64,000 nucleotides of DNA from Calorimonas adulescens (GCF_008274215.1 NZ_VTPS01000006.1:62001-126000), one strand, 5' to 3'; counted from the stretch's first letter, positions 1,018 to 24,172 are shown. Numbers and translations: made by a program. Notes: generated from the letters alone by a model not told the origin.

Positions 1018-1399
1018 CCTGAAGTTTCACTGCTATTTTTGTCTATTTGATTACCCTTCCCTTTCATATGGGGTACCTTCCTGTCTGGGCAATCCTGTAT
1101 TCCATTGACAGCGTTTAATATTTACTATAAATGAAAGTATAAGCCTGGCGTTTGTTAAAGCACACGGCACGCCAAAAACAGTGCGATCACTCTTGATGCC
1201 ACAACTACTTTAAAAACTTTAATTATAAACTTAGACGTAAGCATGTTTTTGCTGTTTTATTTCAAATGCACTGAAGGTAATCGTTATAGTAAACGATATT
1301 CAAGTAAAATATATGATAATTCAAGTAAATTTTGCTTGATAAGTAAACTAGGCCAATTTATAATTTATCTTGAGAAAACGATTTTCAGAGGTGCTAATC
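1018..1399 (+). promoter_or_regulatory. LacI gene control region: promoter and candidate operators
   Basis: This is the 380-bp gap between divergent genes. A good sigma-A promoter, TTGATA-17-TATAAT, spans 1336-1364. Around it are the direct repeat TTCAAGTAAA (1299-1308 and 1320-1329, 21 bp apart), a related GATAAGTAAA at 1338-1347, the inverted repeat TCAAG-N9-CTTGA (1321-1339) overlapping the -35, and ATCGTT-N6-AACGAT (1280-1297). The placement suggests autoregulation by the adjacent LacI protein. The left part (1018-1270) is AT-rich and shows only a TGGCGT...ACGCCA inverted repeat near 1147-1173 and an isolated TTGACA at 1105. Confidence 0.55.
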
Positions 1400-2449
1400 T
1401 TGAATCCAATTAAAAGAAAAAAAATTACAATGAGAGATATTGCTGACGTGCTGAACCTGTCAGTTAATGCTGTCTCACTGGCTTTAAATGATAAAGTGGG
1501 TGTGAGCGAAGAAACAAGGAATTTGGTTATAAAAACTGCGGACGAAATGGGGTATTTCGATGAAAATCCCTCTTTTATTGCCAGGAATCGCCTCAGGAAT
1601 ATCTGCCTAATGGTTGAAGAGAGAAATTTTCGCGATACTCATTTTTATACGAAGGTAATTTTAGGAATAGAAAATGAGGCTAAAAGAAATGATTATGATA
1701 TTTTAGTAAACTTCATGACCAGTGATAAGTTTGAGATTCCATCAAGCGTTGAGAGGAGGAAGGTCTCTGGAGTTATAGTTGTAGGTACTATAAAAGATGA
1801 ACATCTTGAAAAATTATTGAAGTATGATATACCAACTGTCCTTGTTGACCATTGTTCATTTACTATAAGTACAGATGCTGTATTAACTCAAAATATGTCC
1901 GGATCATATATGGCAACGCAATATCTTATTCGAAAAGGACATACACAAATAGGTTTTTTTGGTGAAATCGATTTTTCTTTAAGTTTTAAAGAAAGATGGT
2001 TAGGCTTTAACGAGGCGATGAGAAATGCAGGACTTAATGTAGATCCCATATTTAATGTAAATCCTGGATATTGCGTAATAGGACAGGTAGAACAATATGT
2101 TTTAAGCAAAAACTACAAAGAGGTAGCAAATATTATCTCGAAGTTAGATAAACTTCCTACTGCATGGGTATGCTCCAATGACAGTGCTGCTATTACCTTG
2201 TACAATGCATTGAACATTTTGGGTATAAAAGTACCTGACGATATCTCTGTAGTTGGTTTTGATGATATTGATATATGCAACATTGTGACACCACATTTGA
2301 CCACCATAAGAGTTAATAAGGAACTTATGGGTATAAAAGCTGTAAAAAGGCTTTTGTGGAGAATGGATAACCCAAAAGAACCTCACGACCATATAAGAAT
2401 GGAGGTCAAGCTGGTAGTGAGGGAGTCAGTGAAGGAGATTAAAAATTAA
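1400..2449 (+). CDS. LacI-family sugar-responsive transcriptional regulator
   Basis: The N-terminal helix-turn-helix (about residues 10-35, MRDIADVLNLSVNAVSLALN) and a type 1 periplasmic-binding-fold effector domain (about 65-345, ending with the VVGFDDIDICNIVTPHLTTIR block) define a LacI/GalR repressor of 349 residues. I chose the TTG at 1400 because AGAGGTG lies 8 bp upstream. The earlier in-frame TTG at 1370 sits at the expected transcription start of the TATAAT promoter at 1359-1364. The gene heads the mannoside uptake and cleavage operon and is the obvious candidate for its regulator; the inducer is unknown. Confidence 0.85.
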   Translation: MNPIKRKKITMRDIADVLNLSVNAVSLALNDKVGVSEETRNLVIKTADEMGYFDENPSFIARNRLRNICLMVEERNFRDTHFYTKVILGIENEAKRNDYDILVNFMTSDKFEIPSSVERRKVSGVIVVGTIKDEHLEKLLKYDIPTVLVDHCSFTISTDAVLTQNMSGSYMATQYLIRKGHTQIGFFGEIDFSLSFKERWLGFNEAMRNAGLNVDPIFNVNPGYCVIGQVEQYVLSKNYKEVANIISKLDKLPTAWVCSNDSAAITLYNALNILGIKVPDDISVVGFDDIDICNIVTPHLTTIRVNKELMGIKAVKRLLWRMDNPKEPHDHIRMEVKLVVRESVKEIKN

Positions 2450-2524
2450 GGCTTTTGATAAAGGACAAGAGAACAACATTTAAGTTGTTTTCTAAATAAA
2501 ATTAATTAGATGGAGGTGCACTTT

Positions 2525-3850
2525 ATGAAAAAGATAGCTAAAGGCATTCTGGTTTTTGTCCTTGTCGCATCACTTTTATCAGGGTGTGGGACTAGCACAA
2601 AATCAGAAAATGAGGCATCACAGACGAGTAAGGAAGGGGTTGTGACAATCGATTTTTGGGCTGCTCCAAATCCTCCGCAACAAACTTTCTGGAAACAAAT
2701 GGCTGAAGAGTTCTCAAAGGTCAACCCAAATATCAAAGTAAATGTAAGCCCAATGCCAGAGACACCATCATCTGAGGCTGGTATACAGGCGGCTCTAGCA
2801 GGTGGCAATGCTCCTACAATTTCTGAAAACATTTCCCGTGGTTTTGCGGCACAACTTGTGGATAGCAAAGCTTTAGTTCCCCTTGATTCAATGGATGGTT
2901 GGAATGACATTATAAAGAGCAGAAATATGGAAGATACAATCCAGGCATGGAAATTTGCAGATGGTCATCAATATGTGTTGCCTATATATTCAAACGCTAT
3001 GCTCTTTGCATGGAGGATTGATATTTTAAAACAATTAGGATATGATGAACCCCCAAAAACTTATAGTCAAATTATTGAATTAGGGAAAAAACTAAGAGAA
3101 AAATATCCAGATAAATATTTATGGGCAAATCCTGATTTAATTGACTCTACCTGGTGGAAAAGATGGTTTGACTTCTTTATGCTTTATGATGCGGCATCAA
3201 ACGGTAATAAATTTATAGAAGGCAATACGCTTGTTGCCGATGATAAAGCTGGTGTGGCTACACTTAAATTCCTTGAAGATATGGCAAAAAATAAACTTTT
3301 ATTGACACAAGTGGCGACGGATCCCTTTGAAACGGCGGTGAGTGTTTGGACGACAATTGGACCTTGGACATTTGGCACATGGAAAGACAAATATCCGGAA
3401 CTTAAATTGAATGAAACTTATGTACTTACACCGCCTCCGGTACCGGATGGAATGAGTACAAACAATGTAAAGACATTTGCTGACACAAAGGGTCTTGTAA
3501 TATATGCACAATCTAGCCTTGAAAAGCAAGAAGCAGCGATGGAGTTCATAAAATGGGTATATTCTAATCCTGAAAACGATATGAAATGGTTTGAAATTAC
3601 AAACCTTCCGCCTGCAAGGGATGATGTTAATACAAACGAACAATTTAAGGCATATCTGAAAGATCATCCAGAGCTTCAACTTTATGCGGAATCGATACCT
3701 AATGCTATTCCGCCGTTTGATAATGTTAAATTTAATGATATCCAGACATTAATTGGACAGAAGGCTGTAAATCCAGTTGTTGCAGGACAAATAGATGCTC
3801 AAAAAGCCTGGGATGATATGAAACAAGCTGTTCAGGGGGTTCTTAAATGA
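2525..3850 (+). CDS. ABC transporter sugar-binding lipoprotein
   Basis: This is a 441-residue family 1 extracellular solute-binding protein. The N-terminus has a lysine-rich start, a hydrophobic stretch and a lipobox LLSGC, so it should be processed to a membrane-anchored lipoprotein. The mature part has the WAAPNPPQQTFWKQMAEEF opening typical of oligosaccharide binders. The ATG at 2525 is used because GGAGGTG precedes it; the ATG at 2510 lies upstream of that RBS. It overlaps the first permease by 4 bp (ATGA), and context points to a beta-mannoside ligand. Confidence 0.85.
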   Translation: MKKIAKGILVFVLVASLLSGCGTSTKSENEASQTSKEGVVTIDFWAAPNPPQQTFWKQMAEEFSKVNPNIKVNVSPMPETPSSEAGIQAALAGGNAPTISENISRGFAAQLVDSKALVPLDSMDGWNDIIKSRNMEDTIQAWKFADGHQYVLPIYSNAMLFAWRIDILKQLGYDEPPKTYSQIIELGKKLREKYPDKYLWANPDLIDSTWWKRWFDFFMLYDAASNGNKFIEGNTLVADDKAGVATLKFLEDMAKNKLLLTQVATDPFETAVSVWTTIGPWTFGTWKDKYPELKLNETYVLTPPPVPDGMSTNNVKTFADTKGLVIYAQSSLEKQEAAMEFIKWVYSNPENDMKWFEITNLPPARDDVNTNEQFKAYLKDHPELQLYAESIPNAIPPFDNVKFNDIQTLIGQKAVNPVVAGQIDAQKAWDDMKQAVQGVLK

Positions 3851-4725
3851 AAAGAAGGCAGGAAAAATTGGGTTGGCTTTTTGCCAGCCCATACCTCTTA
3901 TATAGTTTAATATTTTTTGTAATTCCACTCTTTGGAGCGTTATTTTTATCTTTTACTAACTGGAATCTCATTTCGCCTCAATATGAGAATGTTGGCTTTT
4001 TAAACTTTGTTAAAGCTGTAAAAAGCCAAGAAGTTAGGGCTGCGTTTTTTGTGACTTATAAATTTATGGCAATGTTTGTGCCCATTGTATTAATTGGTTC
4101 TTTGGCAATTTCCCTTATTATAAACAGCTTGCCGAGGTTTAAAAGTCTGTTTTCTGTAGGATATTTTTTGCCTTACCTTGCTTCTGGCGTTGCCACCTCA
4201 ATAGTTGTAAGAGGTATTTTGTCATATAACAGTGCTTTAAATGTATGGCTGAGGAACACGTGGGATTTGAATATTGATTGGCTCGGCTCATCAACGCTTG
4301 CCCCATTGATTATTTCTGTCATGATAGCGTGGAAATTTATGGGGTATTATTCGCTCATACTGACATCAGGTTTAGAGAGTATACCTACCGAAGTATATGA
4401 AGCTGCTGCCATAGATGGTGCAACAGGTTGGGTGAGATTCTTTAAAATTACGCTGCCGCTTTTATACCCAGCCATGTTTACTGTAACTATACTGGCAGTT
4501 GGGCTTGTATTTGGTATTTTTACAGAACCGTATGTGTTGACAGGAGGGGGTCCGGGACTTTCAACAAATACCTGGCAGATGGAAATATATAACCAGGCTT
4601 TTAGTAAGCTAAACGCAGGTTATGGCTCTGCAATTGCAATTATTGATTCTGTGGTGACATTTATTACTATTTTAGTAGTTCGTAAACTATTGGAAGTTTG
4701 GGGTGAAAAATATGGTTGGGACTAA
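3847..4725 (+). CDS. ABC sugar transporter permease (MalF type)
   Basis: This 292-residue integral membrane protein has six predicted helices and the EAA loop EAAAIDGATGWVRFFKITLPLL (residues about 180-201) that contacts the ATPase. It starts in the ATGA overlap with the binding-protein gene and overlaps the next permease, so the three are co-translated. It is the MalF/UgpA-type partner. No ATPase gene is in the cluster, so a shared MsmK-type ATPase encoded elsewhere probably powers the importer, as is common in Firmicutes. Confidence 0.88.
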   Translation: MKRRQEKLGWLFASPYLLYSLIFFVIPLFGALFLSFTNWNLISPQYENVGFLNFVKAVKSQEVRAAFFVTYKFMAMFVPIVLIGSLAISLIINSLPRFKSLFSVGYFLPYLASGVATSIVVRGILSYNSALNVWLRNTWDLNIDWLGSSTLAPLIISVMIAWKFMGYYSLILTSGLESIPTEVYEAAAIDGATGWVRFFKITLPLLYPAMFTVTILAVGLVFGIFTEPYVLTGGGPGLSTNTWQMEIYNQAFSKLNAGYGSAIAIIDSVVTFITILVVRKLLEVWGEKYGWD

Positions 4726-5548
4726 AAATAAAAAATTGCAAACTGTATTATTATACACATTAGCGATTATTGTTTTGATTATAATGATGTACCCATATGT
4801 ATATATGATATTAAATTCACTTGCGCCATGGGATCAAGTTGATAGAAGAATAATACCAACAGGACTTACCTTGAAATCTTATATATGGCTTCTGTTTGGG
4901 GGAACCGATGTTATGCCGCGACCATGGCTTAGAGCTTTTGCTAATAGTATGATTGTAACTGTTTCTTCTACTTTTTTAATGATGGTCACAGCGATATTAG
5001 TAGCCTATGCCTTATCAAAATTGGTTTTTAAAGGTAAAAAAACAATAAACAATGTTATTATGTTTCAAATGTTTTATCCCTCAATTATTCTTTTAATACC
5101 TACATTTATACTAGTGAGGAAGTTGGGATTGTATGATACCTATTGGGGCATGATAATTCCAAAATCTGTAAGCTTGTGGGCAATATTTATGTATACAAAT
5201 TTTTTTAAAGCGATACCAAATGAGTTAATTGAAGCCGCAAAGATAGATGGTGCAAATGAGATAAAAATACTTTTTAAAATCGTTTTGCCAATGTCAAAAT
5301 CAATTACCACAGTTATTTTTCTGTTTTTGTTTATGGAAAGGTGGGTAGAGCTTTTATGGGATATGCTTGTTGTGCATAATCAGAACCTTCTTACTCTGAA
5401 TGTTATGCTGGCACAGATGTTTGGGCCATATGGTGCATATCCAGGTCCGATGTATGCTGCATCTGTAATTTTGACACTTCCAATACTTATTTTGTTTATA
5501 ATTTTTAGCAAGAATTTTAAAGAAGGCATACAGTTTGTCTTAAAATGA
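4712..5548 (+). CDS. ABC sugar transporter permease (MalG type)
   Basis: This 278-residue CUT1-family permease has hydrophobic helices and the EAA motif EAAKIDGANEIKILFKIVLPM (about residues 175-195). I prefer the ATG at 4712, which has GGGGTG six bases upstream; an in-frame GTG at 4703 lies within that RBS. It overlaps the end of the first permease gene. With the binding lipoprotein it forms a three-component importer lacking an adjacent ATPase. Confidence 0.88.
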   Translation: MVGTKNKKLQTVLLYTLAIIVLIIMMYPYVYMILNSLAPWDQVDRRIIPTGLTLKSYIWLLFGGTDVMPRPWLRAFANSMIVTVSSTFLMMVTAILVAYALSKLVFKGKKTINNVIMFQMFYPSIILLIPTFILVRKLGLYDTYWGMIIPKSVSLWAIFMYTNFFKAIPNELIEAAKIDGANEIKILFKIVLPMSKSITTVIFLFLFMERWVELLWDMLVVHNQNLLTLNVMLAQMFGPYGAYPGPMYAASVILTLPILILFIIFSKNFKEGIQFVLK

Positions 5549-5566
5549 TGTGACGGAGGTGGGGTT

Positions 5567-7444
5567 ATGACAAAATTTACTGATGAATTTGTAATAGGAG
5601 CTAACTACTGGCCAAGAAATCATGGTATCGAGATGTGGAAAGAGTGGAACTATGATGAGATAAAAAGTGAATTTATTGAGGCGAAAAGATTAGGTATTAA
5701 TGTAATGAGAATAAATCTTTTTTGGGAGGATTTTCAGCCAAAGCCTGATGTAATATCAGAAAAAGCGATAGAGAAATTTGATGAGCTCATTAAAATATGC
5801 CATGAAGTGGATATGAAAATTGCTCCCACTTTTTTTGTGGGGCACATGAGCGGTGAGAATTGGGATGTGCCGTGGAGAGAAGGTAGGAATATATACAGTG
5901 ATTCATTTATGTTGAGGTACCAACTTAAGCTGGTGCGATTTTTTACAGAAAGGTATAAAGACGAACCTGCTATTTTGTTTTGGGACCTTTCAAATGAGCC
6001 AGATAATTATGTAAAAGCAGAGTCAAGACATGATGCCTGGTTGTGGAACTATGTCTTATCGAATGAGATAAAAAAATACGACAAAAATCATCCCGTAACA
6101 CTTGGAATGCACCAGGCATCTCTTCTTACCGATAATAATTTTTATCCTGAAGACATGCAAGAAGGCAACGATTTTCTGTGTATGCACGCATATCCGATTT
6201 ACACAGACGCATGTATAGATCCTGTAAATTCTATAAGAAGCACTTACATAGCGCCATTCGCCTCTAAACTTACTCAGGCTATGGGCGGCAAAAAAGTGTT
6301 ACTCGAAGAATTTGGTGCAACCACCCTCATGATGTCCGAAAACATAGAAGGGGATTATTACAGGGTAGTGCTTTACAGTCTCCTTGCGAATGAATCGATA
6401 GGTGCAATAGCGTGGTGTTTTGGAGATTTTTCTGTTGGTGAAAGGCTTCCGTATAATTCCACGCCCTTTGAAACGCAATTTGGGATAACAGCAGCTGATG
6501 GCAGAGTTAAAAAAGCAGGACTTGAAATAAAAGCTTTTTCTGATTTTATAGATAAGATTGAATATAGACGGCTTAATCCCAGAAAATGTGATGCTGCAAT
6601 AATCGTTCCAGACAAATATTACAATGCGTTATTTGTGGGAGATGACTATACTCCAGAAAGAAATTTTAGAGTCCTTTTAAATAGCTTTATACTTGCAAAA
6701 GAAGCAGGTATAGACGTTGAATTGGTAAGAGCTGATGGGGACTTTAACAGGTATAAAATGCTTATCTTGCCTTCCGCTTATAGAAAAGGGCATTTAAATT
6801 ATGATCAGTGGCTTAAGGTTATGGGATTTATCAAAAATGGCGGCACTTTATATACATCATATGACGGAATATCTATAGAAGGTTTTGATGAGGTATTTGG
6901 AGTTAAAACGCAATACTCTATGGTGCCCAAAAATAAGACAGTATCAATGCATTGTGAGGAACTTGAGATTGATTTAAATTACAGGGCTCTTAAATTTAAT
7001 AAAAGGCTTTTTGTAAAACCGACAACAGGTCATGTAATTGCCGATGATGCTGAGGGACATCCAGCAGTGGTTGTAAATAGATATGGCAATGGGAAAACAA
7101 TTCTTGTCACGTATCCTATTGAACTTTATTTAAGCTATATGCCAGATGTATATAAAGCTGACAAGTCTTATTTGATCTATAGATATGCCAAGGAGTTAAG
7201 TGGAATAAGGTACGATGTAAGTGTAGACTCCCCCTATATTGAGGTTAAGGAGTTTGATTATGAAGATAAAACCCTTATAATTTTTATAAACCATGAAGAT
7301 ATGGATATAAAAAGTAAAATAAACTTAAAAGATGTGAAAGAAAACAGAAATAATGAGAGAATACAAGATTTGATTACCGGAAAGCAGATTGATTTAGAAA
7401 GTTTTACTGTAAATGCGAATGGAGCAGTTGCAATCTTAATATAA
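5567..7444 (+). CDS. GH5-like clan A glycoside hydrolase with C-terminal domains
   Basis: The protein has 625 residues. Residues about 1-330 form a clan GH-A (beta/alpha)8 barrel with the acid/base glutamate in LSNEPDNY (E144) and the likely nucleophile in VLLEEFGATT (E248). A second part (about 335-530) resembles the beta-galactosidase trimerisation fold (LILPSAYRKGHLNYDQWLKVM), followed by a short beta domain. There is no signal peptide, so it acts inside the cell on imported oligosaccharides. A strong GGAGGTGGGG RBS precedes the ATG. Between an importer and two GH130 genes it is best read as a beta-mannosidase or mannanase-like enzyme; the exact linkage is inference. Confidence 0.75.
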   Translation: MTKFTDEFVIGANYWPRNHGIEMWKEWNYDEIKSEFIEAKRLGINVMRINLFWEDFQPKPDVISEKAIEKFDELIKICHEVDMKIAPTFFVGHMSGENWDVPWREGRNIYSDSFMLRYQLKLVRFFTERYKDEPAILFWDLSNEPDNYVKAESRHDAWLWNYVLSNEIKKYDKNHPVTLGMHQASLLTDNNFYPEDMQEGNDFLCMHAYPIYTDACIDPVNSIRSTYIAPFASKLTQAMGGKKVLLEEFGATTLMMSENIEGDYYRVVLYSLLANESIGAIAWCFGDFSVGERLPYNSTPFETQFGITAADGRVKKAGLEIKAFSDFIDKIEYRRLNPRKCDAAIIVPDKYYNALFVGDDYTPERNFRVLLNSFILAKEAGIDVELVRADGDFNRYKMLILPSAYRKGHLNYDQWLKVMGFIKNGGTLYTSYDGISIEGFDEVFGVKTQYSMVPKNKTVSMHCEELEIDLNYRALKFNKRLFVKPTTGHVIADDAEGHPAVVVNRYGNGKTILVTYPIELYLSYMPDVYKADKSYLIYRYAKELSGIRYDVSVDSPYIEVKEFDYEDKTLIIFINHEDMDIKSKINLKDVKENRNNERIQDLITGKQIDLESFTVNANGAVAILI

Positions 7445-7457
7445 GGGGGGTATAAAT

Positions 7458-8366
7458 ATGTTCAGGCTGAAGAGGCTCAGTGATAATCCTGTATTGTTAC
7501 CAATAAAAGAACATGAGTGGGAGAGGGAGGCAGTTTTTAATGCGGCGGTAATTTATGAGAATAATAAATTCCATTTGTTTTACAGGGCTTCTAATAATAA
7601 GTTTATTCTAAATACAGAGAAGCCAGAAAAAAATTATAAATTTGTATCCTCAATTGGGTATGCTGTAAGCGAGGATGGTATCAATTTTAAAAGATTTGAC
7701 CAGCCTGTTTTAAAGGGAGAAACCCCACAAGAGGCGTGGGGAGTAGAGGATCCGCGAATTACAAGAATTGACAATAAGTATTATATTCTCTACACAGGTT
7801 TTGGGGGAAGGAGCTGGTTGGATTTTAGGATATGTATGGCGTGGTCCGATGATTTAAAGAATTGGGAGGGACACAGGGTAGTTCTTGATGAGTCCAATAA
7901 AGATGCGGCGCTTTTGCCCGAAAAAATAAATGGCAGGTATGTGCTTTTTCATAGAAGGATGCCTGACATTTGGGTTGCATATTCTGATGATTTGACTGTT
8001 TGGTATGATCATAGAATTATAATGTCTCCAATACCTGGTACATGGGAATCAAAAAAGATTGGTATAGCAGGGCCTCCTGTAAAAATGGAGGATGGGTGGC
8101 TTCTTATATACCACGGAGTTGATGAAAATGACGTGTATAGATTAGGAGCAGCTCTTTTGGATTTAAATGACCCGTCAAGGGTTATTGCAAGACAGAGAGA
8201 GGCTATTTTGGAGCCTGAGCTCGATTGGGAAATAAATGGGCTTGTGCCTAATGTGGTATTCAGTTGTGGCACGGTAGAGGTAAATGGTGTGTATTATGTT
8301 TATTACGGTGCGGCAGATACCGTAATTGGTGTAGCAGTCATTGAAAAAGAAAAAGTAAAATTTTAA
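7458..8366 (+). CDS. GH130 beta-mannoside phosphorylase (first copy)
   Basis: This 302-residue enzyme has the five-bladed propeller signature of family GH130. It starts MFRLKRLSDNPVLLP, has the catalytic-acid segment GVEDPRITRI (D98), the HRRMPDIW block and LIYHGVDEND, whose Arg and His residues usually bind phosphate. Their presence argues for a phosphorylase that releases alpha-mannose 1-phosphate, rather than a GH130 hydrolase. It is cytoplasmic and 13 bp downstream of the glycosidase gene. Tandem GH130 pairs are known from Thermoanaerobacter as 1,2-beta-oligomannan and beta-1,2-mannobiose phosphorylases, an attractive but unproven match. Confidence 0.88.
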   Translation: MFRLKRLSDNPVLLPIKEHEWEREAVFNAAVIYENNKFHLFYRASNNKFILNTEKPEKNYKFVSSIGYAVSEDGINFKRFDQPVLKGETPQEAWGVEDPRITRIDNKYYILYTGFGGRSWLDFRICMAWSDDLKNWEGHRVVLDESNKDAALLPEKINGRYVLFHRRMPDIWVAYSDDLTVWYDHRIIMSPIPGTWESKKIGIAGPPVKMEDGWLLIYHGVDENDVYRLGAALLDLNDPSRVIARQREAILEPELDWEINGLVPNVVFSCGTVEVNGVYYVYYGAADTVIGVAVIEKEKVKF

Positions 8367-8380
8367 GAAGGGTGGATAAA

Positions 8381-9259
8381 GTGATCAAACTGAAGAGATT
8401 ATCGGATAAGCCAGTGCTTGTTCCTAAAGACAAAGAAGGGCATGAGTGGGAAAAAGCAGCGGTTTTTAATACGGCAGCTATTTATGACAATGGTTTGTTT
8501 CACCTTATTTACAGAGCAACTGACGTGGGACCTCATGCTAAATATGGTGAATATGTCTCAAGATTGGGATATGCAGTAAGTAAAGATGGGATAAATTTTA
8601 TGAGGTTGGACAAGCCTATTTTTACTAATGAAACACCTCAGGAGGCGAAGGGGATAGAGGACCCTCGAATAGTGAAAATTGATGGTATTTATTATATGAT
8701 GTATGTAGCCTTTGGTGGTAGATTCGATGGCGATTACAGGATATGTTTGGCGACTTCTACGAATTTGATTGACTGGGAGAGACATGGCGTTGTGTTGGAT
8801 GAACCCAATAAGGACGCATCCTTGTTTCCCGAAAAGATTAACGGGAAATATGTGATGTTACATAGAAGGTATCCCAATATCTGGATAGCATTTTCTGATG
8901 ATTTAAAGAGCTGGTATGGCCATAAGCCTATAATAAAGCCTATCCCGGGAACATGGGAGAGTGCAAGAGTGGGTATTGGAGGACCGCCGGTTAAGACGAA
9001 GGATGGTTGGTTTTTAATATACCATGCAGCTGACGAGGACAATGTGTATAGGCTTGGGGTGGCTCTTCTTGACTTGGAAGACCCATCAAAGGTTATCTCA
9101 AGACAGAAAGAGCCTATCTTAGAGCCTGAGCTGGATTGGGAGAGGGAAGGGCACATTCCTAATGTTGTGTTTAGCTGTGGCAATGCGGTTAAAGGCGATA
9201 CTATTTACGTTTATTATGGCGGTGCGGATACAGTTATAGGCGGCGCAGTCCTGGTATAA
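8381..9259 (+). CDS. GH130 beta-mannoside phosphorylase (second copy)
   Basis: A 292-residue paralogue of the preceding gene, colinear over its whole length (MIKLKRLSDKPVLVP, GIEDPRIVKI with D94, HRRYPNIW, LIYHAADEDN). The GTG at 8381 is chosen because AAGAAGGGTGG ends six bases upstream and this start aligns exactly with the first copy; the GTG at 8372 is inside the RBS. The HAAD in place of HGVD and the different acceptor-side loop after residue 45 suggest a different chain-length or acceptor preference. It is the last gene of the sugar operon. Confidence 0.88.
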   Translation: MIKLKRLSDKPVLVPKDKEGHEWEKAAVFNTAAIYDNGLFHLIYRATDVGPHAKYGEYVSRLGYAVSKDGINFMRLDKPIFTNETPQEAKGIEDPRIVKIDGIYYMMYVAFGGRFDGDYRICLATSTNLIDWERHGVVLDEPNKDASLFPEKINGKYVMLHRRYPNIWIAFSDDLKSWYGHKPIIKPIPGTWESARVGIGGPPVKTKDGWFLIYHAADEDNVYRLGVALLDLEDPSKVISRQKEPILEPELDWEREGHIPNVVFSCGNAVKGDTIYVYYGGADTVIGGAVLV

Positions 9260-15827: not shown

Positions 15828-18800
15828 ATGGACATTCAGTACATAAGGCAGATGGAAGACCGGTTTTATAACAAGATTGATGAGGCTATGAGCGAGATAC
15901 AGGATATGGACTATATTGACACAGTGGTTGGCATTCCTTTCTATAATGAAAAGGAAACCTTGAGGAATGTAATAAAGACAGCAGAGGAAGGTCTCAAAGG
16001 CTTTCCTGACATGAAAAAACTAATAGTATGCGCTGGAGATCCTGCAGGCAGGGAGGCACTGGAGGCCATAAAAGGGATTGACTGCGAGGTACCGTGCCTC
16101 TTTTTCCTTATGGAGTCCGGTATAAATGGTAGGGGTTTCAGCATAAGGGCTATAATGGAGATAGCAAAGAGGCTGGAGGCGGATGTTATCCTTCTTGAAG
16201 CAGACCTGAAAAGGGAAGGGAAATGGGGTTTTAAGCCCTCATGGCTGAAAAGGCTTATATATCCCCTCAATGAGGGGTATGATATGGTCTTTACGAGTTT
16301 TAGAAGGCATTACTTTGAAGATACCACCGGCGACCTCTTTGTAAAGCCAATCCTTGAGGCATTGTATGGATGTCAATTGAAGGACCCCTTGAGCGGAATA
16401 TATGGAATTTCCCATGATATGGTGGAGGCATACTGCGCAGAGGCCGGGCATTGGTATGAATACACGGGTGGATACGGTATAGACCCGTGGATGGTAACCA
16501 GGGCAGTCATCTGGGACAAGAAATTATGTGAGGTGAGCCTCGGGGCGAAACTTACTCCCCCATCAACAGGAAAGAGGGCCTATGTTTTCAAAGAGGTGGC
16601 AAGGGCAATTTTTGAGTGTCTCAAGGACGATCAGGATTACTGGCTAAAATCACATATGATATTGAAGCGTCCTGACATATATGGGCTTGAAGACAGAGAC
16701 AGGCCTATGGAGATATCCTGCCGCCTCACTGACTTTGTGCAGGCGTTTCAGTCAGGGTATGAGAGGTACAGGGTTATATATGAAAAGATACTCCCTGAAG
16801 GTTTAAAAAGGCAGATCGAAGAGGTATATAGCCTTCCGTATAAAAATTTCAGGTTTAATGAGGACCTATGGGCACAGATTATATATCAGTTTTTGCAGGT
16901 CTATTGTTTTAAGAGCAATGTACCCCAGGAGGATATACTGGATGCTTTTACCATTATGTACGAAGGGCGTATAGCCGGATATATAAAACAGGTGAGAGGG
17001 TTTCGCGATTATCTTATAGATATCAAAGGAATTGATATGGATGAGCTTACCTATAAAAAGACAGGGGACTATTATGCCTGTCAGGTGGAGACTCTTCTGT
17101 CTATGAAGGAAAGCTTTGTAAAGACCTGGATAGAGAAGACCATGGAGGTACAACCGGTCATAACACCACTTGACTATCTTGAATTTGTGCCGGGCGTGCC
17201 CATTGTATTGCCCAAGGAACTGAAAGGATTGGGCGGCAGTATCATAAGGACCAGTGAGGTGTTCAGGAGGGTTGAGAAAAAATATTCTAATGATTTTTAT
17301 GATTTTGTACACAACATGTTAAAGATACCGGAGGGCTTATCTCCGTCGGATGTGTGCAATGGAGTAAAGGAATTTATGTTGCATCTTGAAGATGCTGTGA
17401 ACAAGGTATTCCCGGGGGACCTATATTCCAGCAGCGGTGTTGCGGATGTGGTGAAGGGGATATTTAATCTATTGCCTCATGGCAAGGTCCTGATAGTAAG
17501 GCCAGAGATTTTGAGGAAACTGCTCTATGAGTTCCCCCCGTTAAATCTTATGCTCCGCGTGGGCTATAAGAATGTTACTGAACTATTAAACAACATGAAC
17601 CCACGATATGCCTTGACTCTTGCCAATATAACGGAAGAGAGGCAGTATGTAGATAAGGTTACACTGTGGCTGGAGGATAACCTGAGGCCTGACAGCATGG
17701 AAGAGGTTGACATAGAACCTATCGTACTCAGCAGAGAAGTGATACCAGATATTCCAGATATGAGGGATATTACAATATTGAACAAGATAACGGGTATGAT
17801 TGCTGTGAGCAGCCTGAGCAAGGGTATGGGTGGTGAATATCCCAAACTCAGGTATTTTACTCATATTGCAAAGAATATAGTGGAGGCGGAACACTATTCA
17901 TACATATGGAAGTTATACGCCAGAGAACGCAGGGGCTTTGGCATCAAGGTGGCAAACTCTATCCTCGGGCACCACGGCAGGGACATATTTTCAGCTCACA
18001 ATATGTTCGAAAACTGGCACCAGAGGGAGATGGTGGTCAGATTTAAAAGGCTGGCAGAGGGTCTTGAGTCAAAAGGAAACAAAGATGAGGCAAAAGCCTT
18101 TTATCTAATGGCAGAGGGATATGGGCTGTCGCTTACCTTGAATGATGGGACTTTTGTACCGTGCTCGGCATGGACATGGGCCAGTTACAGTTTCAGGGGT
18201 GGCAAAGGCATACCAACCCCACTTTCCCTGTATGTTGAGAGAGATTGGTTTAACAATGACCTTTTAGTAGAGATTTATAAGGAGATGGGCTACAGGCCCG
18301 GTGAGATACTCGAGGAGGTATACCAGCTTATTGGTGAAGGTAAGGAGAGTGACGACCTTATAAACATTATACTTGGTGTGAAGCCTCATGCCGATGCGGT
18401 AATGGTACAGGACGTGGAAAACTGGCCTGCAGCCGGTTACCTTTTACGCTATGACGGCAATCCCATTTTAAAACCCCTGCCGGACCACTGGTGGGAATCC
18501 AGGTATGTGCTGAACGCTGCAACCTTACGGATAAAGGACAGGGTATATATCCTATACAGGGCATTTGGGAAGGACAGCATATCCAGGATTGGCCTGGCCA
18601 TATCCGATGGGTACAATATAGTGGAGAGGCTACCTGAACCAGTTTTCTACCCTAAAAATAGCACTGAGAAAGATGGCTGTGAGGACCCGCGCGCGGTAAT
18701 CATAAACGATAAAATATATATGATGTACACCGCCTATGATGGAGTGGTGGCGCAGGTTGCTGCCGCCTCCATAAGCATAGATGATTTTTTAAACAGGGAC

Positions 18801-19391
18801 TTTGACAGGTGGGAGAGACTTGGCCTGGCCTTTCCAAACCTCTGGGATAAGGATGCTATACTTTTCCCTGAAAAAATTAACGGCAAATATGTCATGTACC
18901 ACAGGATAGAGCCCAGTATGTGGGTCTCATACTCAGACGAACTTAAGTTTCCATGGCCCAAGGATGGGCATAAAATAATAATCGGTCCACGGTCAGGAAT
19001 GATGTGGGACTCACTGAAGATAGGTGCAGGAACCCAGCCGTTGAAGACCAGGTATGGATGGCTGCTTATATATCATGGGGTAGACGATAATCTAATATAC
19101 AGGCTGGGCGTTATACTGGTAGACTTAAAAGACCCGGGAAGGCTGCTCTATCGTTCACCAAACCCAATCCTGTCGCCAGAGAAGGAGTACGAAACAGGTG
19201 ACAGGTCTACGGCATGGGTGCCCAATGTGGTTTTCACCTGCGGCGCAGTGCCTGCCGAGGATAAGGAGATGCTGGACGCTGAAGATGAGATACTGGTATA
19301 TTATGGAGCTGCAGATACCTACATTTGTGTAGCCCATGCAAAGGTTGGCGAGTTAATACCGGAGGAGGTCAGAAAAAGGATAGACAGATAA
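15828..19391 (+). CDS. Glycosyltransferase-GH130 fusion protein, probable mannoside synthase/phosphorylase
   Basis: 1187 residues. Residues about 25-290 form a GT-A glycosyltransferase (VVGIPFYNEKETL, a metal-site candidate in LLEADLKRE, then GDLFVKPILEALYG and DPLSGIYGIS), resembling the mannosylglycerate/glucosylglycerate synthase type. About 300-860 is a mostly helical region I do not recognise. Residues about 864-1187 are a full GH130 domain with CEDPRAVII (D953 as likely acid), YHRIEPSMW and LLIYHGVDDN, so phosphate-binding residues appear kept. It starts at ATG 15828 after GAGG and lacks a signal peptide, so it is cytoplasmic. It is convergent with GDP-mannose-type genes. A protein that both adds and phosphorolyses mannosyl units is inference. 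Confidence 0.75.
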   Translation: MDIQYIRQMEDRFYNKIDEAMSEIQDMDYIDTVVGIPFYNEKETLRNVIKTAEEGLKGFPDMKKLIVCAGDPAGREALEAIKGIDCEVPCLFFLMESGINGRGFSIRAIMEIAKRLEADVILLEADLKREGKWGFKPSWLKRLIYPLNEGYDMVFTSFRRHYFEDTTGDLFVKPILEALYGCQLKDPLSGIYGISHDMVEAYCAEAGHWYEYTGGYGIDPWMVTRAVIWDKKLCEVSLGAKLTPPSTGKRAYVFKEVARAIFECLKDDQDYWLKSHMILKRPDIYGLEDRDRPMEISCRLTDFVQAFQSGYERYRVIYEKILPEGLKRQIEEVYSLPYKNFRFNEDLWAQIIYQFLQVYCFKSNVPQEDILDAFTIMYEGRIAGYIKQVRGFRDYLIDIKGIDMDELTYKKTGDYYACQVETLLSMKESFVKTWIEKTMEVQPVITPLDYLEFVPGVPIVLPKELKGLGGSIIRTSEVFRRVEKKYSNDFYDFVHNMLKIPEGLSPSDVCNGVKEFMLHLEDAVNKVFPGDLYSSSGVADVVKGIFNLLPHGKVLIVRPEILRKLLYEFPPLNLMLRVGYKNVTELLNNMNPRYALTLANITEERQYVDKVTLWLEDNLRPDSMEEVDIEPIVLSREVIPDIPDMRDITILNKITGMIAVSSLSKGMGGEYPKLRYFTHIAKNIVEAEHYSYIWKLYARERRGFGIKVANSILGHHGRDIFSAHNMFENWHQREMVVRFKRLAEGLESKGNKDEAKAFYLMAEGYGLSLTLNDGTFVPCSAWTWASYSFRGGKGIPTPLSLYVERDWFNNDLLVEIYKEMGYRPGEILEEVYQLIGEGKESDDLINIILGVKPHADAVMVQDVENWPAAGYLLRYDGNPILKPLPDHWWESRYVLNAATLRIKDRVYILYRAFGKDSISRIGLAISDGYNIVERLPEPVFYPKNSTEKDGCEDPRAVIINDKIYMMYTAYDGVVAQVAAASISIDDFLNRDFDRWERLGLAFPNLWDKDAILFPEKINGKYVMYHRIEPSMWVSYSDELKFPWPKDGHKIIIGPRSGMMWDSLKIGAGTQPLKTRYGWLLIYHGVDDNLIYRLGVILVDLKDPGRLLYRSPNPILSPEKEYETGDRSTAWVPNVVFTCGAVPAEDKEMLDAEDEILVYYGAADTYICVAHAKVGELIPEEVRKRIDR

Positions 19392-19581
19392 CAGGGCAGT
19401 ATATTTACTCCGATAGTACATCATGGAAGGCTGTTTCTGCGTCTTTTTGGGTGGGTACTGGAAAGTCCGATAATCTATGCTGCAGGCCTTGTCCACACAG
19501 CTCCGGGGCAACCACCTGCAGAGTATGTCAGGTGGTTTATACAGAGATAGATTCATAGATGAGACTGGGGTATAAATTCAA

Positions 19582-19602
19582 AAAGGGAGGGAACCTCCCT
19601 TT
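19582..19602. terminator. Bidirectional terminator
   Basis: AAAGGGAGG-GAA-CCTCCCTTT with A/T flanks lies between the convergent GT-GH130 and phosphohexomutase genes and overlaps the mutase stop codon. The 190 bp before it show no gene. Confidence 0.75.
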
Positions 19603-20959
19603 AAAATTTCAACGGTACAGCTTTTCTAAGTTCGTCCAGAATCTTTTCCAGGCCCTCCTCTGTCTTTGCCTCTGCCCTCAAAATCACCTCAGGACCTGTA
19701 TTGGATGCTCTGGCTAAGCACCATCCGTCGTATATATACGCCCTCACCCCGTCTACATCCACAACGGAGCACCCTTTTTCAATGAAATATCTTTTGGCGT
19801 TTTCAACTATGGTGAATTTTTCTTTGTCGTCGCTCTCTGCCCTTATCTCCGGAGTAGACACATAGGAAGGAACATCCGAGAGCAGTTCTGACAGCTTTTT
19901 GCCGCTTTTTGAAATTATCCTCAAGAGCCTGCCTGCCGAATAAAGCGCATCATCAAACCCATAGTACTCGTCAGCAAAGAACATATGTCCTGACATCTCA
20001 CCGGTGAAAGGCGAATCCAGTTCCCGCATCTTCGCCTTTATAAGGGAATGTCCTGTCTTATAGAAGAACGGCTTCCCTCCAAGGCGTTTAATTTCGTCTA
20101 CAAGCGCTTCTGAGCACTTTACCTCCACAATACAGTCTATACCCGGATATTTTGGCAGGATCTCCCTCCAAAAGAGGGACATCATAGTATCGCCCCATAT
20201 TATGTTTCCCTTATCGTCCACAACTCCTATCCGGTCGCCGTCTCCGTCAAAACCTATACCCAGGTCTGCTCCTGTCTTTAAGACAACGTCCCTCAATGCC
20301 TTGAGGTTTTCTTCTTTTACAGGGTCAGGGAAATGATTTGGGAAATTGGGGTCGGATTCAGAGTATATGGGTATAACATTGCATCCCCATAGTTCCAGTA
20401 CCTGGGGGCCTATAATAGAAGTAGTGCCGTTTCCGCAGTCAACTGCCACCTTGAGTTTTCTTTCCAGTTTTATCTTTTCCTTCAGCATATCAGCATAGCC
20501 GAATATGGGATAGGAATAGCTTATATCTCCCCTGGGGGCATCCATAAAATCGTCGTTTTCAATCATGCGGCAGATATCCTGCAGGTCATCGCCATACAGG
20601 GTAGCCGGGCCAAAGCATACTTTAAACCCGTTATACTGAGGAGGGTTATGACTTGCTGTTATCATCAGTCCGGGGTTTACACTGTAAAGTATTCTGGAAT
20701 AATAAAACATTGGGGTTGTTAAGAGCCCCACATTCAATACATTTGTGCCCGTACTTAAGAGACCATCTATAACTGCATCCATGAGGTCTAATGAAGAAGC
20801 CCTGTTGTCGTGCCCAACAAGGCATACATCCTCATTTCTCCTCTTGAGGTATGTCCCAAAGGCCTTTCCTATAAGATATGCTGTATTCCTGTTCAGTTCT
20901 TCAGGGACAACTCCCCTTATATCATACTGCCGGAATATAGTAGGGTTTATCTTTGCCAT
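19601..20959 (-). CDS. Phosphomannomutase/phosphoglucomutase
   Basis: 452 residues of the alpha-D-phosphohexomutase superfamily. It has the phosphoserine loop TASHNPPQYNGFK (about residues 98-110), the metal loop GFDGDGDRIG (about 238-247), the sugar-binding GEMSGHMFF (about 318-326) and the phosphate-binding RASNTGPEVILRAE near the C-terminus. It interconverts mannose 6-P (or glucose 6-P) and the 1-phosphate. A GGAGGAGG RBS precedes ATG 20959. It is the last gene of the nucleotidyltransferase operon and overlaps the preceding gene by 38 bp. It could also take up mannose 1-phosphate made by GH130 phosphorylases. Confidence 0.92.
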   Translation of the reverse strand: MAKINPTIFRQYDIRGVVPEELNRNTAYLIGKAFGTYLKRRNEDVCLVGHDNRASSLDLMDAVIDGLLSTGTNVLNVGLLTTPMFYYSRILYSVNPGLMITASHNPPQYNGFKVCFGPATLYGDDLQDICRMIENDDFMDAPRGDISYSYPIFGYADMLKEKIKLERKLKVAVDCGNGTTSIIGPQVLELWGCNVIPIYSESDPNFPNHFPDPVKEENLKALRDVVLKTGADLGIGFDGDGDRIGVVDDKGNIIWGDTMMSLFWREILPKYPGIDCIVEVKCSEALVDEIKRLGGKPFFYKTGHSLIKAKMRELDSPFTGEMSGHMFFADEYYGFDDALYSAGRLLRIISKSGKKLSELLSDVPSYVSTPEIRAESDDKEKFTIVENAKRYFIEKGCSVVDVDGVRAYIYDGWCLARASNTGPEVILRAEAKTEEGLEKILDELRKAVPLKF

Positions 20960-21983
20960 GTATTACCTCCTCCCTTTCTTTTAGTATCGCATTCATCATT
21001 TGATAAGTCAAGAGGAAGCTTACCAGCGCCTCTGCACCCTGATTAGGATTCAAGCCTTCTGGCACCAGGGCGTCATGACACCCTCCCGAATTTTCATTAT
21101 ATAGATTTAATCTGTTTATGTTTTTCCCCCAGTACCACTCATAGGAAAGGATTGCTTTTGACAGATACTCTCTCTTTCCCGTGGCAGTGTATCCTTCGAG
21201 GCAGGCCAAGGTAATTGATGCCGCATCCACAGGCTGCTGGTCAAATGGTGGTATAACACCGTTTCTCTGCCACCACCCCCTATTGCCTACAATGGACAGG
21301 TACCCGTTTTTAAAAAGCGAATCTGTTAAAAACCCCAGGGACTCCTCAGCAACATTAAGCGAGTTCCTGTCGCTGGAGATTTTATAGTAAGAGAATAAGG
21401 AGTGGGGCAATACTGCATTGCAGTAAGTAAGCCATTCCTCAAACCATTTCCAGGTATCGGTCCTGTTATCTGCATAGTTTTTCTTCAGATAGGAGGCCAT
21501 GTCGCCTGCCACCTTATAGAGGTTGTCATAGCTATACCCGTTTGTTATCAAATATATCAGGCCGATAAGTGAGTATGCTACAGCCCTCAAGGACTTCATC
21601 CTTGATATTACAGGCAATGCCCTGCTTATTATGTCTTTTGACTGTTTCTTTATGCTATCATGAGTATCGTCACTGCATAGGACATAACAACACGCCAGAA
21701 ATGCACGCCCTATGCTGTCTTCAGAATCAATGGTTGGAAGAAATGTATCAGCTACCTTGAGGTTGATAAAACTTCCGTCCGGACGCTGAGCACTTTTTAT
21801 AAAGTCCAGATATGTTTTGGCGAATCCTGCATCATCGTCCTCCATATTAATAGCAACAAGGAGAGCCCTGGCGTTATCATCCACTGTATACCCGCTCTCC
21901 TTTAAAGGTTCATCATGCCTTGAAAACTGTATTATACCTGTTTTATCAGTCATCCTTCTAAGGTGCCTGTAAGACACTCCCAT
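20922..21983 (-). CDS. (alpha/alpha)6-type carbohydrate-active protein, function unknown
   Basis: About 353 residues without signal peptide. Repeated helix-rich units with conserved acidic/aromatic motifs (SGYTVDDNARAL, RPDGSFINL, DTWKWFEEWLTYCNAVLPHSL, DQQPVDAASITL, GGCHDAL, NQGAEALVSFL) fit an (alpha/alpha)6 barrel glycosidase, phosphorylase or epimerase fold. I do not recognise a named family. The ATG at 21983 is preferred (GAGGGGG seven bases upstream); a GTG at 22001 is also open. It overlaps the GT4 gene by 26 bp, showing tight coupling. Possible roles are trimming or priming of the mannose-containing product. Confidence 0.6.
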   Translation of the reverse strand: MGVSYRHLRRMTDKTGIIQFSRHDEPLKESGYTVDDNARALLVAINMEDDDAGFAKTYLDFIKSAQRPDGSFINLKVADTFLPTIDSEDSIGRAFLACCYVLCSDDTHDSIKKQSKDIISRALPVISRMKSLRAVAYSLIGLIYLITNGYSYDNLYKVAGDMASYLKKNYADNRTDTWKWFEEWLTYCNAVLPHSLFSYYKISSDRNSLNVAEESLGFLTDSLFKNGYLSIVGNRGWWQRNGVIPPFDQQPVDAASITLACLEGYTATGKREYLSKAILSYEWYWGKNINRLNLYNENSGGCHDALVPEGLNPNQGAEALVSFLLTYQMMNAILKEREEVIHGKDKPYYIPAV

Positions 21984-23133
21984 ACCCATTCCCCCTCGCA
22001 CTGTTTTGAATTACGAGTCCCATAAGATTTATATACTGTTTTGCCACACTGGTCCATGTCATGGTTTTGCCAAGCTTGGACGCCCTTTCCTCCAGGCTGT
22101 GTTTTAGCGTCGGATTATCTATTATGTTCTCTATAAGTGTGGCAAGTTCCATATAGTTATTGCTGCTCTTTGCTATAAGGCCCCTGCCATTACCAAGTAT
22201 CTCCAGGGCATACTCGTAAGGGGTTGACACTATAGCTCTTCCACAACCCACAGCATAGGTTAATGTACCGCTAACGGCCTGGTTTTTATCAGGATAAGGG
22301 GTCATATACACATCTGTCATATACAGATAGTCACCAAGTTCGTCCAGGGATAGATAGTGATTGACAAATTGGACATTATCTGTCAGGTGCATATGCTCAA
22401 CCAGGTCTATCAGCGACTCTCTGTATGTCTCACCGAACTTTTTAACCAGGGAAGGATGGGTTTCACCCAGTACAAGATATAGTATTTCGGGATGTCTTGA
22501 TGCCACTTCCCCTATAGCTTTGATGCCATTTTCGATACCCTTGCCAGGCCCTATAAGACCGAAAGTGGAAACTATAGTCCTTTTGCTGTATCCATACATC
22601 GATTTTAACTGCTCTCTGTTTTTCTGCTTAAAACTGGGAACACCGTGGGGTATTACATAAATTTTGTCTTTAGGGACTCCATAGATATCCTCCAAGAGGC
22701 TTGCTGACCTTCCAGTCATACAGGCAACAGCGGCTGCTGCGCTGCCGAGTCCCCTGAGTATCCATTTCTGTCTAAAGTTAGGGGATGGCAGAACAGTATG
22801 TGTGGTGAGGATAAAAGGCTTTCTCAGGTGGGCAGCAAAGTCCAGGACATATTTCCCATCAAGCCCACCAAATATCCCATACTCGTGTTCCACTATTACC
22901 ACATCTATAAAGGAATCGTTCACGAAATGAGCAGCCTTGATGAACTCATCCCTCTCATCTTGATTAATTTCGAATATAACCTCAGGTGGGTAGTTATAAC
23001 TGGCTCCGCTATCTGTGATGGCAAGTAGTTTCACATTTTTGCCCATCTTGACGAAATTGTCTCTCAAGTCCTTTGAAAATGATGCAATGCCGCATTCTCT
23101 TGGTGGATAAGTGCTTAAAATGGCTATATTCAT
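21958..23133 (-). CDS. GT4-family glycosyltransferase
   Basis: 391 residues with the GT-B layout: N-terminal MNIAILSTYPPRECGIASFSKDL acceptor domain, then VSTFGLIGPGKGIENGIKAI and the donor-binding PYPDKNQAVSGTLTYAVGCGRAIVSTPYEYALEIL, the E-x7-E-type region of retaining GT4 enzymes. The ATG at 23133 follows AAGGAAGGG; a longer frame starting at TTG 23160 overlaps the upstream stop. Cytoplasmic or peripheral. Encoded between the nucleotidyltransferase and the (alpha/alpha)6 protein, it probably uses the nucleotide sugar made by its neighbour. Confidence 0.88.
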   Translation of the reverse strand: MNIAILSTYPPRECGIASFSKDLRDNFVKMGKNVKLLAITDSGASYNYPPEVIFEINQDERDEFIKAAHFVNDSFIDVVIVEHEYGIFGGLDGKYVLDFAAHLRKPFILTTHTVLPSPNFRQKWILRGLGSAAAAVACMTGRSASLLEDIYGVPKDKIYVIPHGVPSFKQKNREQLKSMYGYSKRTIVSTFGLIGPGKGIENGIKAIGEVASRHPEILYLVLGETHPSLVKKFGETYRESLIDLVEHMHLTDNVQFVNHYLSLDELGDYLYMTDVYMTPYPDKNQAVSGTLTYAVGCGRAIVSTPYEYALEILGNGRGLIAKSSNNYMELATLIENIIDNPTLKHSLEERASKLGKTMTWTSVAKQYINLMGLVIQNSARGNGYGSVLQAP

Positions 23134-23149
23134 TTGCATCCCTTCCTTT

Positions 23150-24172
23150 TTAATACGCAATCACACCATAAGACACGTCTTTGTTATCTCCAATGGTACA
23201 GTTGATACCTATGATGGTATTGCTCAATTTTGAACCACTGCCTATCTTACACCCTTCCCATATGATCGAATTCCTTATATAGCTACCCGGCCCGATCTCA
23301 ATATTGTTGCCGATAACAGCCCTGGGACCTATTATCACATCATTGCCTATATAACAGTTATCCCCAATCGCTATTGGGGGAATCAATTTTGCTGTGGGGC
23401 TTATATAGGAGTTTTTACCTATAACTATGCGGTTTTTATAATCCATCTCTATAAATGGATAAGTAAACAGACCATCCAGTATGCTGTTGTGCAGCTCCAA
23501 ATACTTATGCGGCGTACCTATGTCAATCCAGTAGTTGTTATTTTTATATGCGTACATCTTAACGCCAGCCGATAATAGGCCTGGATAAACCTCTTTTTCT
23601 ACAGAAACCTCACGTCCCGCAGGTATAAAATCAAGGACATCCCTCTCAAACACGTATATACCAGCATTGATAAAGTTTGTAGTTATCTCTTCAGGCCTTG
23701 GTTTTTCCTTAAATGCAGTTATCCGGCCATCATTGTCCGTTTCCACAAGACCGTATGCACTTGGATTATCAACCCTGGTAAGGGCAATGGTCACCCTTGC
23801 TCCTGATGCCATATGATAGTCTATCAGATCTCTAAGGTTGATGTCGGTAATTATATCGGAGTTGAATATCAGGAATGTATCATCCAAATACCTCTCTGCA
23901 TTCTTTATAGCTCCGCCTGTACCCAGCGGGCTCTCCTCAATACAATAGTATATCTTTACACCAAATCTACTGCCGTCTTTAAAGTAATTCATGATCTGTT
24001 CAGGCTGATAGCACAGACTCATGACTATCTCATCTATGCCATAGCCTTTAATATAGTTTATGGTTCTCTCCAAAAGAGGCTTGTTGAGTACTGGGACCAT
24101 TGGCTTTGGTATGGAATGAGTAAGAGGATACAGCCTGGTACCCTTTCCTCCGGCAAGTAAGAGTGCCTTCAT
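23150..24172 (-). CDS. Sugar-1-phosphate nucleotidyltransferase (probable mannose-1-P guanylyltransferase)
   Basis: 340 residues. An N-terminal nucleotidyltransferase domain (about 1-230: MKALLLAGGKGTRLYPLTHS, KPMVPVLNKPLLERTI, FNSDII) is joined to C-terminal hexapeptide repeats forming a left-handed beta-helix (about 250-340: IGDNCYIGNDVIIGPRAVIG). This is the two-domain GMPP/GlmU-like layout used for GDP-mannose or related nucleotide sugars. ATG 24172 follows AAGGAGGTGG, and a longer frame to 24268 lacks an RBS. It is first in an operon with a GT4 enzyme and phosphohexomutase, supporting GDP-mannose, but UDP- or dTDP-sugar cannot be excluded. Confidence 0.82.
   Translation of the reverse strand: MKALLLAGGKGTRLYPLTHSIPKPMVPVLNKPLLERTINYIKGYGIDEIVMSLCYQPEQIMNYFKDGSRFGVKIYYCIEESPLGTGGAIKNAERYLDDTFLIFNSDIITDINLRDLIDYHMASGARVTIALTRVDNPSAYGLVETDNDGRITAFKEKPRPEEITTNFINAGIYVFERDVLDFIPAGREVSVEKEVYPGLLSAGVKMYAYKNNNYWIDIGTPHKYLELHNSILDGLFTYPFIEMDYKNRIVIGKNSYISPTAKLIPPIAIGDNCYIGNDVIIGPRAVIGNNIEIGPGSYIRNSIIWEGCKIGSGSKLSNTIIGINCTIGDNKDVSYGVIAY

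Follow-up and report, generated by a model that had tools for sequence, protein, structure and literature searches.

Downstream of a beta-1,2-mannoside uptake operon in the thermophilic bacterium Calorimonas adulescens, a gene for a 1187-residue three-part protein (15828..19391, plus strand) faces four genes on the opposite strand, and the question raised by this arrangement is which sugar the five products handle and what they make of it. The original prediction, made on the whole 64,000-nucleotide stretch analysed here (the window), was of a convergent five-gene mannose module, and all five open reading frames are present. The minus-strand run extends from 24172 down to 19601, is separated from the fusion gene by 209 bases, and encodes a sugar-1-phosphate nucleotidyltransferase, probably a mannose-1-phosphate guanylyltransferase (23150..24172; NTP_transferase domain and hexapeptide repeats), a GT4 glycosyltransferase (21958..23160; Glycos_transf_1 and Glyco_transf_4 in Pfam), an (alpha/alpha)6-barrel protein of 359 residues that is likely a glycosidase and is paired with the GT4 gene (20922..22001; predicted fold), and a phosphomannomutase/phosphoglucomutase (19601..20959; Pfam PGM_PMM I-IV). 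With longest-ORF starts, neighbouring genes on this strand overlap by 11-44 nt, as in one transcript, and a terminator-like hairpin at 19582-19602, past the end of the mutase gene, closes the operon. Neither a hydrophobic segment nor an N-terminal signal is found in any of the five proteins, which agrees with the earlier claim that signal peptides are lacking, and by sequence all five are cytosolic in character. The best NCBIfam model for the mutase is PgmG (469 bits, under the cut-off of 600). Neither Pfam nor NCBIfam has a family that matches the (alpha/alpha)6 protein; its structural model (pLDDT 85) is an (alpha/alpha)6 barrel with 7tem as the best structure match (Z 35.6), and a DDNAR motif is invariant among its homologues.

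The fusion protein has homologues in the phylum, and its AlphaFold model was built with 34 of them as input (mean pLDDT 87). Its C-terminal part (residues 869-1180; 18432..19367, plus strand) is assigned by Pfam, by structure and by invariant residues as a GH130 beta-1,2-mannoside phosphorylase domain. Pfam family PF04041 matches residues 891-1177 with E=2.9e-56 and 191 bits against a cut-off of 26. In the model, this part adopts the five-bladed beta-propeller fold of GH130, and superposes on Teth514_1788 (PDB code 9fj8), a 1,2-beta-oligomannan phosphorylase (PMC4264767), with Z 40.3 and 1.6 A over 288 residues at 41% identity. The site residues of Teth514_1788, i.e., the mannose-site Asn28, the Glu91-Asp92 pair and Asp281 (PMC4264767), have N896, E952-D953 and D1163 as their equivalents in the fusion, all invariant in 37 of 37 homologues; among these are the Asn and Asp of the mannose site and the acid Asp. 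Over the whole domain, mean pairwise identity in these homologues is 69%, and 93 of 306 positions are invariant. The curated model for beta-1,2-mannobiose phosphorylase gives the fusion 254 bits, under its cut-off of 450, yet it is the best model for the protein; a hydrolase model reaches 91 bits on the GH130 part.

The N-terminal part (residues 32-432; 15921..17123, plus strand) is a glycosyltransferase part with the fold of mannosylglycerate synthase. In the model, 352 of about 380 residues superpose on 2y4m/2bo4 (Z 34.1, rmsd 2.8), and nearly the full GT78 length is matched, including the GT-A core and the C-terminal helical subdomain. The two-subdomain fold is thereby shared with the GT78 enzyme of Rhodothermus marinus, from which the fusion differs in sequence (15% identity), in the apparent loss of the metal-site histidine, and in carrying an attached phosphorylase. 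In GT78 and GT81 enzymes, this histidine is a metal ligand; in an alignment with GT81-like relatives, the fusion does not have it at the place where these show KVHD. Stand-alone proteins of the same phylum, 22-26% identical to the N-terminal part, score as glucosyl-3-phosphoglycerate synthase-like (GpgS-like), and because of the fold and this sequence bridge we place the N-terminal part in the GT78/GT81-like set. The GT81 model matches these stand-alone relatives, not the fusion itself, for which no significant GT81 match was obtained in NCBIfam.

The two terminal parts differ in conservation. Conservation is lowest in the transferase part, which has 38% mean pairwise identity and 6 of 363 positions invariant among the 37 homologues; the Asp of its DxD-like motif is kept in 31 and lost in 6. 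Because of this difference, the phosphorylase site is very probably active throughout the fusion homologues, whereas some members may have an inactive transferase part. The helical part in between (residues 433-866; 17124..18425, plus strand) has no known sequence relative: no match was found in Pfam or among PDB sequences, and a PDB profile search gave nothing credible. A relationship to the (alpha/alpha)6 protein was considered and rejected, since there is no profile match. In 299 genomes drawn from the phylum, this conserved domain occurs solely inside the fusion protein, which is common, and it belongs to no sequence family. As a separate observation, Syntrophomonas-type fusions (L061, L066, L069-L072) combine a degenerate DxD-like motif (SANM, SPDM, SSYL) with an intact phosphorylase site, and some genomes with fusions of this type hold two copies.

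The gene set is linked far beyond chance, and recurs with fusion homologues in distant families. The fusion is present in 38 and the (alpha/alpha)6 gene in 67 of the 299 genomes, the latter in 33 of the 38 fusion genomes as compared with 34 of the 261 others (p=4e-20, uncorrected for relatedness). We also collected 86 distinct fusion loci (<90% identical), 44 of them flanked by 6 kb or more on each side. At these 44 loci, the fusion lies beside a GT4 gene in 36, an (alpha/alpha)6 gene in 33, a GDP-mannose pyrophosphorylase gene in 27 and a mutase gene in 26; at least three of the four partners occur at 28 loci and all four at 16. Co-occurrence across genomes, by which the original prediction proposed to be judged, is therefore borne out. 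In relatives from Tepidanaerobacter, Thermosediminibacter and Fervidicola, the order GT4-(alpha/alpha)6-fusion is found on a single strand, and the (alpha/alpha)6 proteins encoded next to a fusion group together in one clade, apart from those of other operons (support 100/100). Next to the fusion, there is no recurrent gene for a transporter, flippase, polymerase, priming enzyme or membrane glycosyltransferase. Genes for glucose-6-phosphate isomerase and phosphofructokinase are 3-6 kb away from it in one family; a location beside a whole glycolytic operon was considered for that family and rejected, the next genes being those of a uridine-kinase-like protein and GroEL.

Fusion loci carry either ManC or a guanylyltransferase of the window type, together with PMM/PGM, GT4 and (alpha/alpha)6 genes. 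Where the nucleotidyltransferase next to a fusion gene differs from the window type, it resembles ManC and has the ManC beta-helix domain; with this domain and TIGR01479 scores of 335-368 bits, a GlgC-type (ADP-glucose) reading of these enzymes is out. One fusion-linked (alpha/alpha)6 protein (L059:6370-7791) carries a mannose-6-phosphate isomerase domain at its C-terminus (PF01050, E=7.8e-35), and ManC-isomerase-mutase fusions are found in sister operons that do not have the three-part fusion. For the window nucleotidyltransferase, the best NCBIfam model is man1P_GTase at 306 bits (cut-off 440), followed by Arch_glmU at 234, and specificity for mannose 1-phosphate is probable for this enzyme; a second enzyme, of ManC type, is encoded elsewhere in the genome. 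By gene content, mannose is almost certainly the sugar involved, and the five genes form a functionally linked set. In these two respects the original prediction of a mannose module is supported, while the product, its linkage type and the glycosyltransferase activity stay at the level of prediction.

The fusion genomes are also set apart by genes that they lack. Neither glgC nor glycogen phosphorylase (GT35) is found in any of the 38 fusion genomes, as compared with 87 and 88, respectively, of the 261 others. The exclusion has p of about 1e-6 by genome, 5e-5 (glgC) and 1e-4 (GT35) by genus, and 0.014 (glgC) by family. Because glgC occurs in 9 of 34 genomes that have the (alpha/alpha)6 gene without the fusion, i.e., there is no exclusion in these, the absence of glycogen genes goes with the fusion. 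A strong GlgA-type synthase domain is encoded in 8 of the 38 fusion genomes, and the missing glycogen genes may reflect ancestry or lifestyle.

The explanation that we favour, tentatively and at somewhat less than an even chance, is a cytosolic, GDP-mannose-fed cycle in which a beta-mannoside would be made and then recycled by phosphorolysis; this product is most likely a beta-1,2-mannan or oligomannoside kept inside the cell as a reserve in place of glycogen. This explanation is the best reading because the proteins are cytosolic, the phosphorylase is of the oligomannan type, genes for GDP-mannose supply and a mutase are at hand, transport and envelope genes do not recur, and glycogen genes are excluded; we infer the individual reactions, the linkage and the reserve role from these features. 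The guanylyltransferase would supply GDP-mannose, from which the GT4 enzyme and its (alpha/alpha)6 partner, probably also the mannosylglycerate-synthase-fold part, would start and build the mannoside. The GH130 part could extend the beta-1,2-linked mannose chain or, with phosphate, shorten it and free alpha-mannose 1-phosphate, which could either be recharged by the guanylyltransferase or be converted by the mutase to mannose 6-phosphate for glycolysis. Of the cycle of building, trimming and return of mannose originally predicted, mannose 1-phosphate fits well as the product of a beta-1,2-mannoside phosphorylase domain, while the reactions are still those that we would expect from the protein families.

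A known system with such a logic is the mannogen of Leishmania, a cytosolic beta-1,2-mannan with GDP-mannose-fed synthesis and phosphorylase turnover by the GT108 MTP enzymes (PMC8950772), and by analogy the module may be a bacterial counterpart of this mannose store. The beta-propeller fold is shared (6q50, Z 22.8), but the fusion propeller is nearer to GH130 than to GT108 (Z 40 as compared with 22-23), and the transferase and middle parts have no equivalent in the single-domain GT108 enzymes. As a conjecture, to which we give a chance of about a third, many syntrophic and thermophilic anaerobes without classical glycogen genes would store carbon as beta-1,2-mannan, a bacterial mannogen, and a single polypeptide in which a new middle domain joins a GDP-mannose transferase to a phosphorylase would both make and mobilise it. 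If so, Syntrophomonas, Pelotomaculum and Tepidanaerobacter would have an unrecognised carbon reserve. In the open-licence literature searched, neither a GT-GH130 fusion nor a bacterial beta-1,2-mannan reserve was found, and within this searchable literature the protein architecture and the glycogen-gene exclusion appear to be undescribed.

The fold relatives of the N-terminal part are retaining enzymes that form alpha-linkages, whereas GH130 enzymes act on beta-linkages, and this discrepancy counts against the reserve cycle. An alternative is a compatible-solute cycle, in which the N-terminal part would use GDP-mannose to make a small mannosylglycerate-like molecule and a beta-mannosyl unit would be taken off or recycled by the GH130 part. 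Mannosylglycerate was already the alternative in the original prediction, and the N-terminal fold speaks for it, given the whole-length superposition of mannosylglycerate synthase on residues 32-432 and the GpgS-like scores of the stand-alone relatives; several hosts are also thermophiles. Most homologues found come, however, from mesophilic-looking syntrophs and digester MAGs, mannosylglycerate is alpha-linked and would not be attacked by GH130, and the characterised relatives of the GH130 part act on beta-mannosides, the nearest being an oligomannan enzyme. Since this reading also gives no account of the GT4 gene or the (alpha/alpha)6 gene, we consider a solute cycle unlikely, and a beta-1,2-mannan reserve the more likely of the two.

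A link that the original prediction did not contain is provided by the uptake operon (1370..9259, plus strand), 6.5 kb upstream of the fusion module. It encodes a LacI regulator (1370-2449), an ABC binding protein (2510-3850), two permeases (3847-5548), a GH5-like protein (5567-7444) and two GH130 enzymes (7458-8366 and 8372-9259) that score 537 and 517 bits, over the beta-1,2-mannobiose phosphorylase cut-off of 450. The operon is complete and resembles that of Teth514_1788/1789; the nearest relative (L074) has it too, at 95-99% identity, and its gene content is that of a Thermoanaerobacter cluster (also seen in L073). In Thermoanaerobacter sp. X-514, Teth514_1785-1796 comprises ABC uptake, GH5, two GH130, guanylyltransferase, GT4 and hypothetical protein genes in one cluster (PMC4264767). 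The window has the uptake half as well as the guanylyltransferase-GT4 pair (21958-24172), but here the genes are split into two operons, and the trio, with a mutase gene, is convergent to a fusion that the X-514 cluster does not have. The hypothetical protein Teth514_1785 is a candidate (alpha/alpha)6 protein only; a relative with the same gene order (L222) has the same trio. Because uptake, phosphorylases, guanylyltransferase and GT4 form one cluster in X-514, a beta-1,2-mannoside shared by the two halves is supported.

A salvage route to GDP-mannose has been proposed for these enzymes by Chiku 2014 (PMC4264767), in line with which imported beta-1,2-oligomannosides would be phosphorolysed to mannose 1-phosphate to feed GDP-mannose for other glycans, the fusion being an extra phosphorylase with a degenerate transferase. 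The known uptake operon, the published model and the far better conservation of the GH130 part as compared with the transferase part are consistent with this route. Almost no other fusion locus, however, has the uptake operon (labels for its two GH130 genes occur at 8 of 86 loci, those for its transporter genes at none), conserved middle and transferase parts would be needless in a pure salvage enzyme, and the window already has two dedicated phosphorylases, which makes salvage a rather improbable role for the fusion. No source of beta-1,2-oligomannan was found in Thermoanaerobacter by Chiku 2014 (PMC4264767); should bacteria themselves turn out to produce it, this would provide a natural substrate for the uptake and phosphorylase enzymes already known. 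A lipid-linked or envelope mannan, i.e., a surface glycan built by the GT4 pair and the fusion with the phosphorylase editing chain length in the cytosol, is least probable, for although PimA-type mannosyltransferases are among the GT4 sequence relatives, none of the five proteins has a transmembrane segment and genes for flippases, polymerases or priming enzymes do not recur by the fusion.

The dependence of the preferred cycle on GDP-mannose is challenged by one family. The fusion without GDP-mannose genes, named in the original prediction as a finding that would speak against it, is partly realised in six draft genomes of this family (90-95% complete), in which GlmU is the sole protein of the nucleotidyltransferase superfamily and neither a GDP-mannose pyrophosphorylase nor a second mutase could be recognised; the (alpha/alpha)6 gene is missing in five of the six. 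In two relatives (one is a single contig), ManC, mutase and GT4 genes are still grouped, at a different locus, and the (alpha/alpha)6 gene was detected next to them. In one draft, GT4 and (alpha/alpha)6 genes sit on a 3.6-kb contig, so the missing genes may there be an assembly gap; in the other five, loss is likelier. Because these six drafts have the fusion without the pyrophosphorylase, they suggest that it can work without GDP-mannose, e.g., on mannose 1-phosphate alone.

The operon itself is not tied to the fusion as the original prediction had it. The guanylyltransferase-GT4-(alpha/alpha)6 trio, partly described in Thermoanaerobacter, is widespread without the fusion, mostly with a stand-alone GH130 gene ahead and a mutase or ManC gene behind, and the module is therefore best read as one form of an older mannose operon, with the phosphorylase now residing in a three-part protein. 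In the GH130 tree, stand-alone operon enzymes, Teth514-type enzymes and fusion domains form separate groups, with some long branches and an unsure branching order. A single protein of 729-808 aa combines GT4 with (alpha/alpha)6 in L206, L209, L211, L212 and L213, beside a stand-alone GH130 gene, and in L209 and L213 the fused gene adjoins a ManC-isomerase-mutase triple fusion. A related operon (L216:4895-7315) has a GH94-family phosphorylase (806 aa) between its (alpha/alpha)6 and mutase genes, i.e., this gene context also hosts a phosphorylase of a different family. Stand-alone GpgS-like glycosyltransferases of 413-437 aa (L224:6412-7695, L226:2880-4190, L225:852-2090) adjoin LacI-type regulators and ABC sugar transporter genes, possibly as a glycosylglycerate operon. 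Elsewhere in the window, the genes of two MATE-family efflux transporters (9406-10821 and 12862-14196), on opposite strands, separate the uptake operon from the fusion module, and S-layer-anchored proteins are encoded at 24543-25964 (a polysaccharide deacetylase) and 57139-61440 (a subtilase of 1433 aa).
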